Below, piece by piece: positions 44,087-52,585 of a DNA stretch of 64,000 bases. The notes beneath the pieces were generated by a model that did no database searches, had not been told where the DNA came from, and saw only the letters and a program-made list of their open reading frames with translations. The translations under genes and the position numbers were made by a program. This DNA is from Fimbriimonadaceae bacterium (GTDB lineage: Bacteria > Armatimonadota > Fimbriimonadia > Fimbriimonadales > Fimbriimonadaceae), in assembly GCA_019187105.1 (NCBI GenBank), contig JABAQM010000001.1, positions 1,426,001-1,490,000 on the forward strand. Reading direction: 5' to 3'. Within the stretch, counting starts at the first letter, position 1. Every line of letters starts with the position of its first letter.

Positions 44087-45367
44087 CTACCGCTTCATGT
44101 TGAGCAGGTCCTGCAGCATTTCGTCAACAGTCGTGACGACGCGCGTGTTCGCCTGGAAGCCACGTTGAGTGACGATCAAGTCGGTGAACTCGGCACCAAT
44201 ATCGACGTTGGACTGCTCAAGGAAGCCCGCATTGATCGACCCGCGGCCACCTGTTCGGGGCGCACCGATGACGGGTATCCCTGAGTTGTCGGTATTGCGC
44301 CAAAGGTTGTTGCCTGTCCGCTCCAAGCCGCCCGGATTCGGGAAGATCGCCATACCGATTTGGCCCAGCGGCCGGGTCAGACCGTTCGTGAAGAGACCGG
44401 TGATAATGCCGTCGTTGCCGATCGTGAAGCCCTGAAGCGAACCGGGCGGGAAGCCGTTCTGGTCGCTCGGGTTGACCTGGGTCTCGGTCTTCAACTGGCC
44501 GATATTGGCAAAGTTGAGGTCGACTGGAAACGCGGGCGCACCACCGGCTGAAGCCGGAACCGTGACTCGCCCAAGAACCGTGCCATTGATGAGCTCGCCA
44601 TTGCTGTCGAAGTACAGCCGCTGGTTGGAACCCGTACTATAGTCGCCGATTCCTGTAGCCCCCTCCGTCGCCGTCCATCGCCACGAGGAAACCGCCCCGG
44701 GAGGCGGCGCACCCTCGGGAGGATCGGCCCGGTTGCTGAAGTTCACGGAAATGTCATGTGGGCCACCCAAGGTATCGAAGACGCGAACGGTCGTGCTCCA
44801 GCTTTCGGTCGGGCCGGCAAGGCCGTTTAGGTTTCCAGCAAAGTTGACTTGGGTGGTTACCTGAACCGCATTGAGCGCCCCAAGCGGGATCGTGATCGGC
44901 GACGCCGGCCCCAACGGGATGTTGTTGTCGATGCCTCCAAACGAGTCGGCGCTCCAGCCGATGACCCGTTCGCCGGTTGCTCGATGAACAAGTTGTCCGG
45001 CGGCGTCGAGGTCGAAGCCACCGTCCCGCGTGTAAGCCATGCGCTCACCGTTCGAAACGATAAAGTAGCCGTTGCCCTGGACGGCGATATCAGTCGGCCG
45101 GTTGGTCGCGTTCAACGACCCCTGTTCGATGTTCACGTCCGTGCCGGCAACGAGAACGCCCAGTCCGAACTGGATCGGGTTGGTGCCACCTCGCTCGGTC
45201 GTCGGACGAGAGGCGCCGCGAATCGTCTGGGCAAGCATGTCCTGGAACGTAACTCGGCTGCCTCGATAGGCGGTCGTGTTGACGTTGGCCAGGTTGTTGC
45301 CGATAACGTTCATTCGGGTCTGCTGAGCCTTGATGCTCGCAACACCCGCTAAGAGTGCTTGTAACAT
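44087..45367 (-). CDS. flgE: flagellar hook protein FlgE
   Basis: A 426-residue axial protein. The N-terminal rod motif LLAGVASIKAQQTRMNVIGNNLANVNT and the C-terminal LEQSNVDIGAEFTDLIVTQRGFQANTRVVTTVDEM (quoted in parts) are the paired flagellar rod/hook helices that form the coiled-coil core. A central variable domain with TRDGGFDLDAAGQLVH is as in FlgE/FlgF/FlgG. It is the major hook subunit. The start has GGAGGAG, and a terminator follows. It is last of the fliK-flgD-flgE unit. Confidence 0.9.
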   Translation of the reverse strand: MLQALLAGVASIKAQQTRMNVIGNNLANVNTTAYRGSRVTFQDMLAQTIRGASRPTTERGGTNPIQFGLGVLVAGTDVNIEQGSLNATNRPTDIAVQGNGYFIVSNGERMAYTRDGGFDLDAAGQLVHRATGERVIGWSADSFGGIDNNIPLGPASPITIPLGALNAVQVTTQVNFAGNLNGLAGPTESWSTTVRVFDTLGGPHDISVNFSNRADPPEGAPPPGAVSSWRWTATEGATGIGDYSTGSNQRLYFDSNGELINGTVLGRVTVPASAGGAPAFPVDLNFANIGQLKTETQVNPSDQNGFPPGSLQGFTIGNDGIITGLFTNGLTRPLGQIGMAIFPNPGGLERTGNNLWRNTDNSGIPVIGAPRTGGRGSINAGFLEQSNVDIGAEFTDLIVTQRGFQANTRVVTTVDEMLQDLLNMKR

Positions 45368-45482
45368 TTCTCCTCCACTACGGTCGTCGAGGTCACGGCC
45401 GAACTCATCCTTTCTGGATAGTTCGAGGAGTCCCGCTTGTGCGGTCCACTCGGTCGCCTTGCCTCTACTGGTTGTCGATGCG

Positions 45483-45860
45483 TTACACGATGACCGCGCT
45501 GTCGATGTTCGTGAAAACGTTTTCCTTCAAACGGTCTCGATCCACAGCCGTGATCACGGTCCGGTTTTTGACACTCACGACAAGCGCGATGTCATCGAGC
45601 ATGACCAGCGACTCCCTTGCGCCCTTTTCCGCCGCCTTGTCCACGCCTTGAATCACCCGTTCCCAGGCGTCGCGATCCAGTTCGATGTTTCGGCTGGAAA
45701 GGCGAGTCTTGGCATGGCCACTCAACTTGAGCCGGGCATCGAGGATCGAGTCGAACTCACCCGGCGGCAGCTTCGGCTGGCCGACTGGCGACGACGCGGT
45801 CCCAACCGACCGGTTGGTCAGCAGTCCTTGTACGTGCGGGTTCTGGATCGGAACGCTCAT
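45483..45860 (-). CDS. flagellar operon protein (Flg_new, TIGR02530-like)
   Basis: A 125-residue cytoplasmic protein. The pattern LSGHAKTRLSSRNIELDRD, then KAAEKGARESLVMLDDIALVVSVKNRTVITAVD, split here, matches a small family found between flgD and flgE in Firmicutes-type hook operons. Its role in hook or motor assembly is not known. The ATG at 45860 lies eight bases after the flgD end. A 115-base gap separates it from flgE. Its position between flgD and flgE supports the call. Confidence 0.8.
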   Translation of the reverse strand: MSVPIQNPHVQGLLTNRSVGTASSPVGQPKLPPGEFDSILDARLKLSGHAKTRLSSRNIELDRDAWERVIQGVDKAAEKGARESLVMLDDIALVVSVKNRTVITAVDRDRLKENVFTNIDSAVIV

Positions 45861-45867
45861 GGTTTTG

Positions 45868-46293
45868 CTAGCCCGAAACCTCTCGAACTGCCGACATGGG
45901 GACATCAACGATGCCGCCATCCGGCTCCTGAAGTCCGAGATACTGCTGGCCCTGGCGCACGGTTAGCTTCACGACCTTCCCGGACACGATGCCGTTCTCG
46001 CCGCCGCTACCGCTTTCGGTCATGGAGCGTAGCGCCGTCACGGTCTTGCCCATCAGCGCGCTCGCCTGGGTCATTTCCATAGAGTCACGCAGCTTGTCCA
46101 TGCCCTCGACTTGGCCAAGCTGTGCCATTTGCGCGAAGAAGTCGCGATCGCTCATTGGCTCCAGCGGGTTTTGGTTGGCCAACTGGACCGTAAGCAATCG
46201 AATGAACGTCGAGATGTCGAGCTCAGACTTCGGTTCGACGCGTGGCGTCTCCTTGTAAAAGCTCGTGTCGAGAGATTGAACTCGGTTTAGCAT
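45868..46293 (-). CDS. flgD: flagellar hook-capping protein FlgD
   Basis: A 141-residue protein. The segment ISTFIRLLTVQLANQNPLEPMSD is the hallmark N-terminal helix of hook assembly scaffolds, followed by AQMAQLGQVEGMDKLRDSM. It lacks the larger C-terminal Ig/FLG domains of E. coli FlgD (about 231 residues), so it is a short form. It should cap the growing hook so that FlgE subunits can add. It ends one base before fliK's stop, on the same strand. Confidence 0.92.
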   Translation of the reverse strand: MLNRVQSLDTSFYKETPRVEPKSELDISTFIRLLTVQLANQNPLEPMSDRDFFAQMAQLGQVEGMDKLRDSMEMTQASALMGKTVTALRSMTESGSGGENGIVSGKVVKLTVRQGQQYLGLQEPDGGIVDVPMSAVREVSG

Positions 46294-46294
46294 G

Positions 46295-47854
46295 TTAGAT
46301 CGTTAGGTCCAGTTGGCCAGACCAGCCTTCCCACCGGGCGTGCCTAGGCGGCGTCGGCTCCGTTTCCTGGCGAGTGAGTCGTGCGCCAACCATCTGCTGG
46401 AACTGCTGCTGAGCCTGTGGATCGGTTTGGCGAGAGTGTCCGTCCGTCCAGGACGAAGCACTCGGGTTATGAATGGTGAGGTTGGCAAGCTGGTGGCCCT
46501 TGGCCTCCACAACCGGCGCCAATAGGGGTCGGGAGGTCTCAAGCGCTCCCCTGACCGAATCGTTCGTTGCCGCGATCTCCGCCTCGACCCGGTTGCCGGT
46601 CGTTCGGACCGTAACCGTTATGCTGCCCAAATCCTCAGGGTGAAGCTGAATCTTGACTTGGCCGAACGGTCGCGACTCGATCAATCGCTCAATCGCCGCA
46701 GCCGCTCGCTCCACGATCACCTCACGGGTAGCAGCATCGAGTTTTCGCCCTGGTGAAAGTCGAATCGGTTCCTTTGCTTCGACCCGAACCGCATGAGCAG
46801 ATTCGGGCCTGATTGGAGCGGCATCCTCGATGGTGGCAGTCGGTTCCTCCTCATGCCGGACTTCCTGAATCTCGTTCAAATCCGGCGATGCTTTTGGCGT
46901 GCCCGTAGCGCGGGTGGTCGATGGCTTGGAGTCCTTGCCCATCGGGCCAGTAGCATCGGGAGTGTCGCCGCTCGCCTTTGGTTCAGAGACCGTCGGCTTC
47001 CGTTCAGCACTGGTCGGAATCGGTTCGTTTGCAGTGGACCGAGGCTTACTGTTCGTGACTTCTGGCCCGACAGTTTCCGCACTCTGCGCCACCGTCGGCG
47101 GATGCTTTGCCGGATCCACAATCACGGGTTTCCCAAGTTGCTGGGATCCCTCCGGACGTTGATCGGTAACCACTTCGGTCACCTTCGGCTGAACGGCCGG
47201 TAGCGCGGCGTTCGGCCGAGTATGGCTCAGCAACCGGTCGGGGCTTTCAGGGTCCGCCGTAGGGGGAGACGGTAAGGAAATCTCGACTTTTGTCGGGGTC
47301 AGCGCGCGCAGAACCTCGTCGGGCAATTCCTGATCGACCTGCCGCGGGCCGGCACCGCGCACCTCAACCAGCCGCTGTGGACCCACGGGCTGGGGTTCTG
47401 GATGGCCGGTAACGGCAGGAGCCGCTTCCGGACAGGCTGCTGTGATCGCCGGCTGAGCGATCGGCTGCGGCACGGAGACGGCTTTGGAAGCAGATGTGAG
47501 ATTGGGCAGGGGAGACGTTGCCACTGGAGTCGTGGTCGCGGGCACCCATTCCGATTTCCAGGTCAGAAGCGCGGCGAGCCAGTCCATGGCCGGCGTCGCC
47601 GGTGTGGTCTCCGAGTCGTCCGGTTCGATTCGCAGGGCAATCGGCCCATTTGCGAGTTCCTCGACTCCTAAATTGACCGCCAGGGCCAATTCGGGTGGCG
47701 ATTCACCGGGCGGCGCCAAGATTGCAAGCTGGGCTTGGAACAAGGCTGCATCGAATCCGACCTCAGTCGGGTTCGGCATGGCTTCCGCCGTTTCCGGAAT
47801 AGCCGCTTGCCCGCCCAAAAAGATGGTGGCGATGTTCATGCCGATTGAAATCAT
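46295..47854 (-). CDS. fliK: flagellar hook-length control protein FliK
   Basis: A 519-residue protein. The first 370 residues are Pro/Thr/Ala-rich and of low complexity, as in FliK rulers. The conserved C-terminal domain (about 375-470) has GQVKIQLHPEDLGSITVTVR and VEAEIAATNDSVRGAL, and ends QQQFQQM. It measures hook length and switches the export apparatus to late substrates. The upstream ATG (47854) and a second at 47839 are both possible; GGAGGAT precedes the first. It starts the hook unit, divergent from the HAD gene. Confidence 0.9.
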   Translation of the reverse strand: MISIGMNIATIFLGGQAAIPETAEAMPNPTEVGFDAALFQAQLAILAPPGESPPELALAVNLGVEELANGPIALRIEPDDSETTPATPAMDWLAALLTWKSEWVPATTTPVATSPLPNLTSASKAVSVPQPIAQPAITAACPEAAPAVTGHPEPQPVGPQRLVEVRGAGPRQVDQELPDEVLRALTPTKVEISLPSPPTADPESPDRLLSHTRPNAALPAVQPKVTEVVTDQRPEGSQQLGKPVIVDPAKHPPTVAQSAETVGPEVTNSKPRSTANEPIPTSAERKPTVSEPKASGDTPDATGPMGKDSKPSTTRATGTPKASPDLNEIQEVRHEEEPTATIEDAAPIRPESAHAVRVEAKEPIRLSPGRKLDAATREVIVERAAAAIERLIESRPFGQVKIQLHPEDLGSITVTVRTTGNRVEAEIAATNDSVRGALETSRPLLAPVVEAKGHQLANLTIHNPSASSWTDGHSRQTDPQAQQQFQQMVGARLTRQETEPTPPRHARWEGWSGQLDLTI

Positions 47855-47928: not shown

Positions 47929-48657
47929 ATGACCGTTCGGTCCGCCTCTTTTCCTTGCTGCGCAGTGCTTTTCGACATTGATGGCACGCTCGCGGATACG
48001 CTCGACACCCTCATTGCCGGACTCGGCGATGGATACAAGTTCGCCAGCGGCATTCGCCCATCGGACGATGAGATCAAGTCCACAATCGGCACTCCGTTAC
48101 GTCAGCAAATGAATCTCTTCAGAGCGGAGCCCCTACCAGCCGACAAGCTGGCAGAGGCAGTGGCATACACGATCGAACGGTTCCATTTCCACGCTGGCAT
48201 GAGCCGCCTGTTCGAACCGGCCGTCGAGGCCCTTCGGTACTGCCATCGCCAGGGAATCCCCTGTGCCTTGGTCACCAGCAAGAGCCGACCCGAGTTGGAT
48301 CGCTTCTACACCAAGTTTCCGTTGCGAGACCTCGCCGTCGCTGATGTATGCGCCGACGATGTGTCCGCACCAAAGCCTAATCCAGAGAGCGCCTTTTTGG
48401 CATGCCGCAAGCTCGGCGTGCAACCCACTTCTGCCGTCTGGATGATCGGCGATTCTGTTTTTGACATCCGCTGCGGACGCGCGGCTGGCCTATCCACCGT
48501 CGCCGTCACCTATGGCGCAGGCAAGGCCCCCGAATTGCGTGCGGAGCAGCCCGACATCGTTCTCGATGAACCCCAAGATCTGCTGGAATTTGTCCAGCGA
48601 CAGTTTGATCCATCCCTATGCCTAGAAAGCCAAAATCCGAAGTTAACGCCGACCTAA
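47929..48657 (+). CDS. HAD-superfamily phosphatase
   Basis: A 242-residue hydrolase, phosphoglycolate-phosphatase-like. The nucleophile is in FDIDGTLADT; the next motifs are ALVTSKSR (Ser/Thr), KPNP (Lys) and WMIGDSVFDIRCGRAAG (acidic motif IV). A helical cap lies between. Substrates of this group include phosphoglycolate and pyrophosphate; specificity is unknown. The ATG at 47929 is chosen because of the motif position. Its end overlaps the following large gene by 40 bases. Confidence 0.88.
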   Translation: MTVRSASFPCCAVLFDIDGTLADTLDTLIAGLGDGYKFASGIRPSDDEIKSTIGTPLRQQMNLFRAEPLPADKLAEAVAYTIERFHFHAGMSRLFEPAVEALRYCHRQGIPCALVTSKSRPELDRFYTKFPLRDLAVADVCADDVSAPKPNPESAFLACRKLGVQPTSAVWMIGDSVFDIRCGRAAGLSTVAVTYGAGKAPELRAEQPDIVLDEPQDLLEFVQRQFDPSLCLESQNPKLTPT

Positions 48658-51600
48658 ACCTCCCGACCGAGAAGACACCGGAAAAACCGAAACGCATCTC
48701 TCGTGCCGCAAAGGCGGTCGTCACTCCAGAGGTCGTCCTCGAACCGCCTGCGAAATCGTCTCGACGCTCGCGCACCAAGGCGGCACCAAAGGAGCCCACC
48801 AAGGTCGAAGCCAATGCCAAAGCCACCGTCAAAAAGACCGCGCCTAAGCCAAGGGCCGCAAAGTCAGGGCCGCCGGCAAAGTCGACTGTCGCAACGCCGG
48901 TCGACGAAGATATGCTGGTGCCGATCTGGCGGCCAGTTTCCAGAGCCAATGCGCCTGAAGTAGAGGCCGCAGAGCTAACGGTCGGACCGATAGCGCCCCG
49001 CCGATCGCGAAAGGCGCGGGGAGTGGCGGCCGCCCGGCCCGCAGCCGAGCAGCCAGCCGCAGAATTGGAACCGATGGACATCGCCGTCGAGTTCCGGTCC
49101 GCCGGCGACCGGGCCGAACCTACTCGGGACCGTAAGCGCCGACGACGTGGACGCAGAGGCGAGGAGGAGGCGGCATCCGCTGGAAGCGAGGCTCCCATTG
49201 CCGTTGCGCCACCGACGACGCCACAGGCGCCGGAAGCCGTGCCCATTCCCGACGATGCGCCTCGCATCGTGGAGGTCCATGGCCAACCGGTGATCTACCG
49301 CGAGGGTCGCGTGATTCCTCCGCAATTCTTCTTTGGCGCCTCGCTCGATAGCAAGCGAGCAAACAACGTATTTGACGAGATTCGGCTCGCCACCGAAAGC
49401 GGCATCGACCTCTTCATCCATCTCGTCGATCTCACTGTTGATCCGGACTCGGTTGACGATGCCGTTTCCTTCGCCGGTTACCTACTCAAGAAGACGGTGG
49501 AGATCAATCCAAACGCGCTCGTCGCCTTCAGAACCGTATTCCAAGCACCCAAGGGGTGGGACCGTACTTACCCTCATGCCAAATTTACGATCGAAACCGG
49601 CGGATTGGCCGAGCCGAGCGTTTGCGACGATGCTTTCTGGAAAGTGGCTGAGGATTGCTTGGCGGACTTTATTCACAAGCTTCGGATGCTCGACACCAAC
49701 CGGCACGTCCTTGGCATTCATTTGGAGCGCGGGGAGTGGTTCTTTGCCGACGGCTGGGGATACGACACCTCGATTGCGGCGCACGAGAAGTTCCGGGATT
49801 GGGTCAAGATGCGGTACCGCGACGATATCGTCGCTCTTCGCGCCGCATGGTACGACGGAAGCGTCCAATTCCAAACGGTTTCGGTACCGGAATATGGCGC
49901 GGAATACCGTCAGGGCGAACAGTTCGTCCGAATGGGTCGCAAAGCCCGCTGCTGGGTCGACTACCACCTTTTCCTGAGCGATACCACGGTCGAACGGATC
50001 GGCAAGCTGGCCAACACGGTCAAGAAAGCCTCCGAAGGCTACTACCTTGCCGGCGTGAGCTATGGCTACACGTTTGAATGGTCGCATCCCGGAAGCGGTC
50101 ACCTTTCCCTCGGAAAGCTCCTTCGCAACCGCGACGTCGACTTCATCGCCGGGCCGCCAAGCTACAAGAACCGGGAGCCCGGTGGTGTGGCGGCGTTCCC
50201 CTGCCCCATCGATAGTTTCGCGATCAACCAGAAGCTCTATATCAGCGAGGAGGACTTCAAAACTCCGATCAGCGGCCTGCAGGAGCCTGACGACTTCAAT
50301 CCCGTCATGAAAACGCCGCAGGCGCTCGACAGCGTGCATTGGCGTGGCGCCGGCGCAGCGCTTGCCCACTCGTCCGGTGTCTGCTGGATGGACCTCTGGG
50401 GCAACGGATGGCTCAACACGAGGGGAATCTGGCAGCGAGCTTCGAAGATCCGGCAGTCGATGATCAGCCGTCTCGCGGTCGATCCCCAAGAACCTGACGT
50501 TGCGGTGTTCATCGACGAACGCTCCCTTGCCTATCTCGTCGATCAAACCGCGTTTGCCCTTCTCGTGCAGAACGTCAGGGAGTCGATTTTGCGAAGCGGT
50601 CTGTCGGCGGGCTTCTATCTTCTTTCGGACCTCGCCCATCGGGAACGATTCCCGGAAAGCAAGCTCTACGTCTTCATGAACGCCTGGGACATTCGTCCCG
50701 AAGTTCGCAGTGCTATCAAATCGCGCCTCCAGCGAGACGACAAGGTTCTGTTTTGGCTTTATACAGCGGGACTGTTCGATGGCGGACGAGATGCGCTGGA
50801 GCGGGTACGAGAAGTAACGGGCATCCCCCTTCGCAAGCAGCCGTTCGGCAGCAAGCCCGGCTCGACCGTTCTCAATCGAAGGAACCCGCTTTGCGAGGCG
50901 GTGCCAGAGAAGCTCTTGGCCGCGGGTGGCCAGTTGGAGCCGAGCTATTTCGCCATCCCTGAAGAGTCCACGGTGCTTGCGGAATACACCCAGTCAGGGC
51001 TGCCGTCTTTCGTCATGCGAAACTTCGTCGGCGACGCCGGAATGTGGAAGTCGGTGTTCCTTGGAGAGCCAATTGTAACGCCGGCCCTCTTCCGCGCCCT
51101 TGGACAGATGGCCCACGCTCATGTGTGGTCGTTTATGGACGATCTCGTCCACGTAAGGCCCCCCTTCCTTACGATCCACTGCAGAGGTACGGGAAACCGG
51201 ACGATTACACTGCCTAACAAATGGTCTGCATACAATCTGGTGACCGAACAATGGGCCACGGTTGATTCCACGCACCTTTCAATCCAGGCGATCGATGGCA
51301 CAACCCACCACTTCCTGATCGGTACCCAATCCGATATCGAAGTGATCCTCAGCCAAGACCCCGAAAGCCTCTTGCGAATGGAGGAAGCACCGCCGAAGCC
51401 TGACAACACGCTAAGCCTCGACTCGATCCACTTCGACGTTCCAATCATGAAGCTCGACGAGTGGATGGAGGAATCCTGGTCCGAAGATCTTGCCGACGAC
51501 CTCTTGTTGAAGCCCAGCCAGTTCGATTTCGACATTGCACCTGAAGACCGGAGCGATAAGTCGCGAACGAAGCGCAGTGATCGTGGCAAGGGGCGTCGCC

Positions 51601-51680
51601 GCCAGGGCGCCGCTACCGGCAAGAGCGTTCCCAGCGATGGAGACCTCGAGGTGAACGTGGTCTTCCGCAAGAGAAGCTGA
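48618..51680 (+). CDS. large glycosidase-like protein with basic tails
   Basis: A 1020-residue protein. The first 215 residues are Lys/Ala/Pro-rich, histone-H1-like, with KRRRRGRRG at 173-181. From about 235 to 900 the sequence looks like a clan-A TIM barrel plus beta domains, like beta-galactosidases of GH42 type (QFFFGASLDSKR; LGIHLERGEWFFADGWGYD; HWRGAGAALAHSSGVCWMDLW), though the catalytic Glu pair is not certain. A second basic tail (about 975-1000) follows. No signal peptide is present, so it is cytoplasmic. It overlaps the HAD gene and is coupled to era. Enzyme activity is unproven. Confidence 0.6.
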   Translation: MPRKPKSEVNADLNLPTEKTPEKPKRISRAAKAVVTPEVVLEPPAKSSRRSRTKAAPKEPTKVEANAKATVKKTAPKPRAAKSGPPAKSTVATPVDEDMLVPIWRPVSRANAPEVEAAELTVGPIAPRRSRKARGVAAARPAAEQPAAELEPMDIAVEFRSAGDRAEPTRDRKRRRRGRRGEEEAASAGSEAPIAVAPPTTPQAPEAVPIPDDAPRIVEVHGQPVIYREGRVIPPQFFFGASLDSKRANNVFDEIRLATESGIDLFIHLVDLTVDPDSVDDAVSFAGYLLKKTVEINPNALVAFRTVFQAPKGWDRTYPHAKFTIETGGLAEPSVCDDAFWKVAEDCLADFIHKLRMLDTNRHVLGIHLERGEWFFADGWGYDTSIAAHEKFRDWVKMRYRDDIVALRAAWYDGSVQFQTVSVPEYGAEYRQGEQFVRMGRKARCWVDYHLFLSDTTVERIGKLANTVKKASEGYYLAGVSYGYTFEWSHPGSGHLSLGKLLRNRDVDFIAGPPSYKNREPGGVAAFPCPIDSFAINQKLYISEEDFKTPISGLQEPDDFNPVMKTPQALDSVHWRGAGAALAHSSGVCWMDLWGNGWLNTRGIWQRASKIRQSMISRLAVDPQEPDVAVFIDERSLAYLVDQTAFALLVQNVRESILRSGLSAGFYLLSDLAHRERFPESKLYVFMNAWDIRPEVRSAIKSRLQRDDKVLFWLYTAGLFDGGRDALERVREVTGIPLRKQPFGSKPGSTVLNRRNPLCEAVPEKLLAAGGQLEPSYFAIPEESTVLAEYTQSGLPSFVMRNFVGDAGMWKSVFLGEPIVTPALFRALGQMAHAHVWSFMDDLVHVRPPFLTIHCRGTGNRTITLPNKWSAYNLVTEQWATVDSTHLSIQAIDGTTHHFLIGTQSDIEVILSQDPESLLRMEEAPPKPDNTLSLDSIHFDVPIMKLDEWMEESWSEDLADDLLLKPSQFDFDIAPEDRSDKSRTKRSDRGKGRRRQGAATGKSVPSDGDLEVNVVFRKRS

Positions 51681-52585
51681 TGTCCTATCGCGCCGGGTAC
51701 GTCGCTCTTATTGGGAAGCCGAATGTCGGCAAAAGCACGCTGTTGAACGCGGTGGTTGGGCAAAAACTCGCGATCGTCAGCGACAAGCCCCAAACGACTC
51801 GACGTCGACTCCTCGGCATTGCCACCATGCCGGAAGGCCAAATCGTGTTTATCGACACTCCCGGCCTCCATGACGCTCACACGCGGCTCGGCAAGCTGAT
51901 GAACGAGTCGATTCGCGAATCGCTTGCCGGCATCGACTTGGTGCTTGTCGTCGTGGATGGATCGAAGCGTCCCGACGACAAAGACGAAGCCGTTGCGAAG
52001 CTTCTCGCGGCGGCAGGCATTCTTGGCGGTTCGATGCCGGTCATCGTGTGCATGAATAAGATGGACAAGCTCCTTCCAAACGACGTCATTCCCAACGTCG
52101 AAGCCTATGGCCGGCTCTTCCAGACCGAGTCGTATATGATGACCAGTCTCATCAAAGAGCGGAACATCGACAAGCTGGTCGAAATGGTATTAGCCAACCT
52201 TCCGGAGCAGGAACCACTTTTCGAGGAAGATTGGATCACGAACGAGCCCATGCGGAACCTCGCCGCTGAGTTCATTCGAGAGGAAGTGCTGAAGCGGACC
52301 CGGCAAGAATTGCCTCACGCAGTGGCTACGCTCATCGAAGAGTGGGAAGAAGATCCAGAGGGCGACCTCGTCCGCATCAATGCCTCTATCATCGTTGAAA
52401 AAGAGAGCCAGAAGCCGATCATCATCGGTCAACGGGGGCAGATGATCAAGGAGATCGGCACCAAAGCTCGCCAAGAGATCGAAAGCCTTATTGGAAAGCG
52501 GGTCTTTCTCGAGCTCTTCGTGAAAGTCCGTAGCGAGTGGCGCCAGAATCCGCGCATGCTTCGTGATCTCGAATACACCCAGTAG
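51680..52585 (+). CDS. era: GTPase Era
   Basis: A 301-residue ribosome-assembly GTPase. G1 GKPNVGKST, switch DKPQTTRRR, G3 FIDTPGLHD and G4 NKMD are present; the C-terminal KH domain shows IIIGQRGQMIKEIGTKARQ. It binds 16S rRNA 3' end during 30S maturation. The ATG overlaps the upstream TGA by one base, so it depends on translation of the large glycosidase-like gene. That pairing is unusual; era commonly follows ybeY or cdd. A secreted barrel gene follows after 29 bases. Confidence 0.96.
   Translation: MSYRAGYVALIGKPNVGKSTLLNAVVGQKLAIVSDKPQTTRRRLLGIATMPEGQIVFIDTPGLHDAHTRLGKLMNESIRESLAGIDLVLVVVDGSKRPDDKDEAVAKLLAAAGILGGSMPVIVCMNKMDKLLPNDVIPNVEAYGRLFQTESYMMTSLIKERNIDKLVEMVLANLPEQEPLFEEDWITNEPMRNLAAEFIREEVLKRTRQELPHAVATLIEEWEEDPEGDLVRINASIIVEKESQKPIIIGQRGQMIKEIGTKARQEIESLIGKRVFLELFVKVRSEWRQNPRMLRDLEYTQ

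Follow-up and report, generated by a model that had tools for sequence, protein, structure and literature searches.

Glycosidases of clan A carry their acid/base glutamate at strand 4 of the barrel and their nucleophile glutamate at strand 7. The described proteins closest to the one studied here are the beta-galactosidases of glycoside hydrolase family 42 (GH42; 3tts, 1kwg; Pfam PF02449) and the GH164 beta-mannosidase Bs164 (6t5o, 6t7g). Here we analyse a gene carried by a 64,000-nucleotide stretch of a Fimbriimonadaceae bacterium genome (contig JABAQM010000001.1; this whole stretch is called the window). It codes for a protein of 1020 residues in which a GH42-like core stands between two long, disordered, basic arms, and which we call the armed protein. 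While the fold is of the known GH42/GH164 type, a glycosidase-fold core between long basic arms bearing repeated motifs is an architecture for which we found no description: a literature search, with most subscription journals outside its reach, returned neither such a Fimbriimonadia protein nor a nucleic-acid-binding GH42. The reading that we favour, tentatively and a little short of calling it probable, is that of a cytosolic, nucleic-acid-anchored and multivalent GH42-like protein, docked to a partner by its motifs, mostly still a glycosidase and, in a few lineages, a scaffold. The features of the gene, with the basis of each assignment (pLDDT, the predicted local distance difference test score of AlphaFold2), are:

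48618..51680 (+), armed GH42-like protein gene, open reading frame (ORF) of 1020 residues
48618..49235 (+), N-terminal disordered basic arm, residues 1-206, starting with MPRK (pLDDT, composition, conserved start)
48915..48938 (+), arm motif copy 1, LVPIWRPV, residues 100-107 (motif family)
49077..49100 (+), arm motif copy 2, DIAVEFRS, residues 154-161 (motif family)
49134..49160 (+), KRRRRGRRG cluster, residues 173-181 (sequence)
49236..51407 (+), GH42/GH164-like three-domain core, residues 207-930 (AlphaFold2 model, fold matches)
49734..49736 (+), E373, putative catalytic acid/base, three residues past barrel strand 4 (kept in secreted paralogues, GEW; inferred)
50247..50249 (+), E544, putative nucleophile in barrel strand 7, with E545 as the alternative (inferred)
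51408..51677 (+), C-terminal disordered arm, residues 931-1020, with an Arg/Lys cluster near 979-996 (pLDDT below 50 from 933)
51651..51674 (+), C-terminal motif VNVVFRKR, residues 1012-1019, followed by one residue and the stop (kept in nearly all Fimbriimonadales)

A sequence-only reading of this DNA had proposed a clan-A-like core and had named structure prediction beforehand as its test, the absence of a barrel to count against it. The AlphaFold2 models, made for the full length and for the core plus the C-terminal arm, contain an eight-stranded triosephosphate isomerase (TIM) barrel reaching to about residue 620 (strands 236-240, 265-273, 301-309, 364-370, 477-481, 509-512, 540-546 and 587-592), followed by a Rossmann-like middle domain and a beta C-terminal domain, in the order of GH42. 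The best match among solved structures was GH42 3tts, over the whole length (Z 21.5, root-mean-square deviation 3.8, 609 aligned residues, 14% identity), with 1kwg at Z 20.8. The fold is likewise shared over the whole length with GH164 (Z 20.8 for 6t7g, 20.4-20.8 for 6t5o/6t7g), and Foldseek agrees. By sequence, a profile that included the paralogues described below matched GH42 chains (E 6e-9), and GH164 chains were not listed. Identity is nevertheless low, about 11-14% to GH42 and 10-12% to Bs164. Its basic arms, of about 200 and 90 residues, also set the armed protein apart from GH42, and we know of no arms like these in Bs164. With the Pfam GH42 model the window protein scored 14.3 bits against a gathering cut-off of 21 (E 0.026), and PF02449 was matched at E<0.01 by 12 of 38 close members. 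Since neither NCBIfam nor, at its cut-off, Pfam gave a match for the armed protein, the earlier remark that it resembled nothing familiar stands.

The basic arms noted at both ends in the same reading, KRRRRGRRG included, are borne out by composition and by pLDDT, which is below 50 across nearly all of residues 1-195 and 933-1020; most of the core is above 70, and the disordered arms span about residues 1-199 and 933-1020. Residues 1-206 hold 42 K/R, 27 D/E and 67 A/P, and residues 961-1020 hold 15 K/R; the core is acidic (net charge -23). We sampled 464 kb of the own genome (14% of it: 400 kb in stretches plus the window): among the 434 mechanically called ORFs, no other had such an arm of more than 90 residues (227 residues here; runner-up 86). 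An initial M with a basic pair within five residues opens 64 of 76 arms, and M(P/A)RKK-type starts are recurrent. Arms such as these align poorly by nature; dozens of divergent loci show them in one and the same frame, which ruled out an out-of-frame artefact. A wrong start or a missed signal peptide was ruled out as well. A stop codon lies four codons upstream of the start, the next possible start is at about residue 99, and no signal peptide was found from any start of the gene, the N-terminus being charged, disordered and devoid of a hydrophobic stretch. Because the start is secured by the conserved MPRKK-type N-terminus and by a conserved overlap with an upstream gene of the haloacid dehalogenase (HAD) type, seen in 35 of 40 measured loci, the earlier statement that a secretion signal is lacking holds.

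Canonical AT-hooks occur in one subgroup, at three or four per arm (KRGRGRPR or KRPRGRPR in L004, L043 and L052, to which L032 was added by reading), which one would not expect in a protein of glycosidase fold. The window protein itself has none (RGRP core with basic flanks), and this, together with its large enzyme-fold body, distinguishes it from the AT-hook and histone-like basic-tail proteins that its K/A/P-rich arms resemble. As far as sequence can tell, the Arg-rich clusters found throughout and the AT-hooks of the subgroup favour nucleic-acid binding by the arms.

Within Fimbriimonadales, both arms bear a recurring aromatic-Arg motif that the sequence-only reading had missed, acidic-phi-x-phi-x-(F/W)-R-x-(R/K). 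The N-terminal arm usually has one to five copies, with a consensus of about (D/E)(D/E)-L-P-(V/I)-P-x-(F/W)-R-(P/S/A)-(R/K); a further copy (NVxFRKR) nearly always forms the extreme C-terminus, with the consensus (M/V/L/I)-(N/S)-V-(M/V/L)-F-R-K-R-(D/E)-COOH. The window protein has LVPIWRPV, DIAVEFRS and VNVVFRKR. Aromatic residues are scarce in the N-terminal arms, and F or W stood directly before Arg in 147 of 299 cases against 31.6 expected. Similarly, [VIL]x[FW]R was counted 75 times in N-terminal arms against 3.9 in shuffles (maximum 10) and 76 times in C-terminal arms against 5.0 (maximum 11), all these counts taking related sequences as independent. Plain inheritance of one string is disfavoured, since copy number and position of the motif differ between lineages. 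Two alignments, of 38 and 30 members, showed no variation at F1016 and R1017. The C-terminal motif was confined to this ORF among the 434 sampled, and a DNA pattern for the C-terminal form had the armed gene as its sole match in the own genome (reversed control, 5 + 1 matches); the P-x-P-x-W-R pattern, with 43 matches there versus 29 in the control, was uninformative. Family f2 retains a C-terminal WR(R/K) form, for example IIAIQWRRPGEEE, with the N-terminal copies mostly absent. In armed orthologues of other classes, Arg-rich clusters are seen and the C-terminus lacks such a motif.

We then considered the catalytic residues. From the model, E373 and E544 are the candidate acid/base and nucleophile: E373 lies just after strand 4 and E544 in strand 7, the places expected for clan A, and each has an aligned glutamate in most secreted paralogues. 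In the profile alignment, the acid/base Glu of GH42 falls one residue before E373, and the Asn that precedes it is absent: the strand-4 Asn-Glu dyad of GH42 is replaced by (E/D)RGEW in the armed family. Both residues are kept in 77 of the 90 members scorable at both sites. Both are missing in seven (L022, L029, L092, L098, L100, L101 and L105) and one is missing in six; on a FastTree phylogeny these losses need at least 5 changes. The seven double-loss members share one branch group with one single-loss member, the other single losses being scattered; several of the seven sit on longer branches. All of them retain the arms and the C-terminal FRKR/FRRR motif, and none is among the three loci without era mentioned below. 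A shifted nucleophile is possible in these members because E545 is still there. Our best reading of the sequences is that the conserved role would not be catalysis only.

The armed gene is single copy in its own genome, even with a broad profile, and is nearly universal in the class. It was present in 40 of 41 relatives, the lone exception being a genome 72% complete, and in 61 of 61 sampled Fimbriimonadia genomes from 32 of 32 genera, the two samples sharing some genomes. A search in other Armatimonadota, which the sequence-only reading had suggested, found armed orthologues outside the class: a match of any kind was obtained in 28 of the 41 genomes of a phylum sample, and strong ones (E <= 1e-160) outside the class in eight genomes of five families (f8, f12, f17, f26 and f28). 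At all eight loci the core is preceded by a long arm rich in R/K/A/P/E and followed by a basic stretch; clusters of the RRRRRGGRGRGR type occur in these other classes. A branch with 100% support in the Shimodaira-Hasegawa-like approximate likelihood ratio test (SH-aLRT) set all 25 armed proteins apart. Secreted GH42-like Armatimonadota paralogues (L145-L152, the weaker phylum matches that were read) stand on the other side of the tree. They are about 22-29% identical to the core and mostly share the GEW and ED/ExD motifs, but most have an N-terminal signal, none has basic arms, and there are often several per genome. Beyond Armatimonadota, a single pattern-based scan of 84,980 species genomes gave lineage-titled matches that were all Armatimonadota except one labelled Methanoregulaceae. 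This record (L053, JADZEW010000005.1, titled Methanoregulaceae archaeon) holds the armed gene of Fimbriimonadia at 62% identity, with era adjoining in the matching genome, and is probably a mislabelled or mixed metagenome-assembled genome.

The armed gene lies between two others, with which it forms a conserved HAD-armed gene-era cluster:

47929..48657 (+), HAD-IA phosphatase-like gene (PpaX/Gph/MupP-like), likely from ATG 47929, the mechanical ORF starting at TTG 47845
51680..52585 (+), era, GTPase Era (NCBIfam above cut-off), in TGATG overlap with the armed gene stop

The TGATG coupling to era that had been pointed out is real: the stop TGA occupies 51678-51680, the era ATG begins at 51680, and the product of the downstream gene scores higher than the NCBIfam cut-off for Era. 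We found era directly downstream in 77 of 80 non-redundant loci, an adjacency strongly conserved in most of the order, nearly always within about 80 nucleotides and often overlapping or a few nucleotides apart. A pattern search gave 68 of these (one at 278 nucleotides), and nine more came from Era-type P-loops read in the other 12; L013, L030 and L106 have no adjoining era. At the other end, the HAD phosphatase gene runs 40 nucleotides into the armed gene, which had escaped the earlier reading. It scored against NCBIfam PpaX (E 5e-30), MupP (2e-24) and also Gph-like models, all below cut-offs, and was found upstream in roughly half of the f1 loci, in all f2 loci and in f3 and f8. Given this distribution beside that of era, the HAD gene looks like the oldest conserved neighbour, the HAD and armed genes forming an older pair that era would have joined in part of the order. 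In f2 and in other classes the armed orthologues have no era beside them. Era is therefore not an obligate partner, and the ribosome-linked role that had been drawn from the coupling is not supported as stated.

Under the favoured reading, the Arg/Lys clusters of the disordered arms, with AT-hooks in one subgroup, would hold the GH42-like body on nucleic acid, and the repeated motif would dock each chain several times to one partner. By analogy with other GH42 enzymes the protein would probably be a multimer, with a trimer joined by the middle domain as the likeliest form. In most lineages the body would probably remain an enzyme, a retaining glycosidase or transglycosidase with a small glycoside of the cytosol as its substrate, and would be produced along with the HAD phosphatase of the upstream gene, presumably a metabolic neighbour; in the few lineages where the putative catalytic residues are gone, the protein would persist as an armed scaffold. 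Such a protein would work like RNase E type scaffolds, in which a structured enzyme is joined to disordered Arg-rich regions bearing short docking motifs (PMC4435900); the armed protein, with its glycosidase-fold core, has no sequence relation to these. A wider version can be entertained, if doubtfully: that evolution took over a glycosidase fold to build the body of a multivalent hub, anchored to nucleic acid and associated with the nucleoid or with RNA and the ribosome, a near-universal Fimbriimonadia housekeeping protein with an undescribed docking motif and a catalysis dispensable in some lineages. If the arms do bind nucleic acid, a bacterial protein of glycosidase fold, from a single-copy gene nearly universal in a whole class, would act on or beside DNA or RNA. 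The repeated motif and its nearly invariant C-terminal copy give a direct handle for finding the partner, and the lineages that lack the putative catalytic pair and keep arms and motif make the question of enzyme versus scaffold testable by comparison.

Several points weigh against the favoured reading. Catalysis may still be the main function, the putative catalytic pair being present in most members, and basic arms of low complexity can exist simply for solubility or crowding. Adjacency to era and the N-terminal motif copies are each limited to part of the armed clade, and the motif statistics carry the assumption of independence given above. No partner of the motif was found. There was no sign of docking onto the protein's own core in the AlphaFold2 models, which are partner-free and leave both arms disordered, and the own genome's single RNase E/G, considered as a second bearer, is without the motif. 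This RNase E/G (L189, G000:C1:1294610-1295416), the only one of the genome, lies in an open frame of 651 codons with no obvious long scaffold arm.

The armed protein could instead be an ordinary cytosolic GH42-like glycosidase in housekeeping carbohydrate chemistry, in which it and the HAD phosphatase might, for example, turn over a glycoside that serves as a store or an osmolyte, its arms being untargeted tails for solubility or crowding. The GH42 fold, the E,E pair in 77 of 90 scorable members, the translational overlap with the phosphatase gene and the want of any known partner all agree with this. We judge it unlikely all the same: the repeated motif and the conserved C-terminus far exceed what composition would give, AT-hooks occur in one subgroup, arms are retained across classes, and the seven members without both putative catalytic residues are still armed. 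That the protein is a ribosome-assembly or ribosomal RNA-associated factor working with Era, the arms binding ribosomal RNA and the motif binding Era or another assembly factor, would suit both the 77 of 80 loci and the Arg-rich arms; we consider it improbable, as era is absent beside the armed orthologues of f2, which has the C-terminal motif, and of other classes. In other bacteria, moreover, era often adjoins unrelated genes. A nucleoid or DNA-associated protein in which the barrel acts not as an enzyme but as a scaffold or a sensor of sugar appears quite improbable: the AT-hooks of L004, L032, L043 and L052, the histone-like K/A/P composition and the disappearance of the catalytic pair from one branch group, beside scattered single losses, speak for it, but AT-hooks are restricted to that subgroup and most members keep the putative pair. 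Export, or binding to the envelope, by an overlooked signal is very improbable indeed. It would align the protein with its related paralogues in other Armatimonadota families, which have N-terminal hydrophobic signals; the start, however, is fixed by the HAD overlap and the MPRKK start, and the arm has no hydrophobic stretch.

Other genes were seen around the cluster. In the f2 loci L163, L164 and L167, the place of era after the armed gene is taken by a hisF-like gene. By reading, flgE-, flgD- and fliK-like flagellar genes adjoin the cluster in the window on the opposite strand (44087-47854, -), and L163 similarly has flgE/flgD-like genes upstream.

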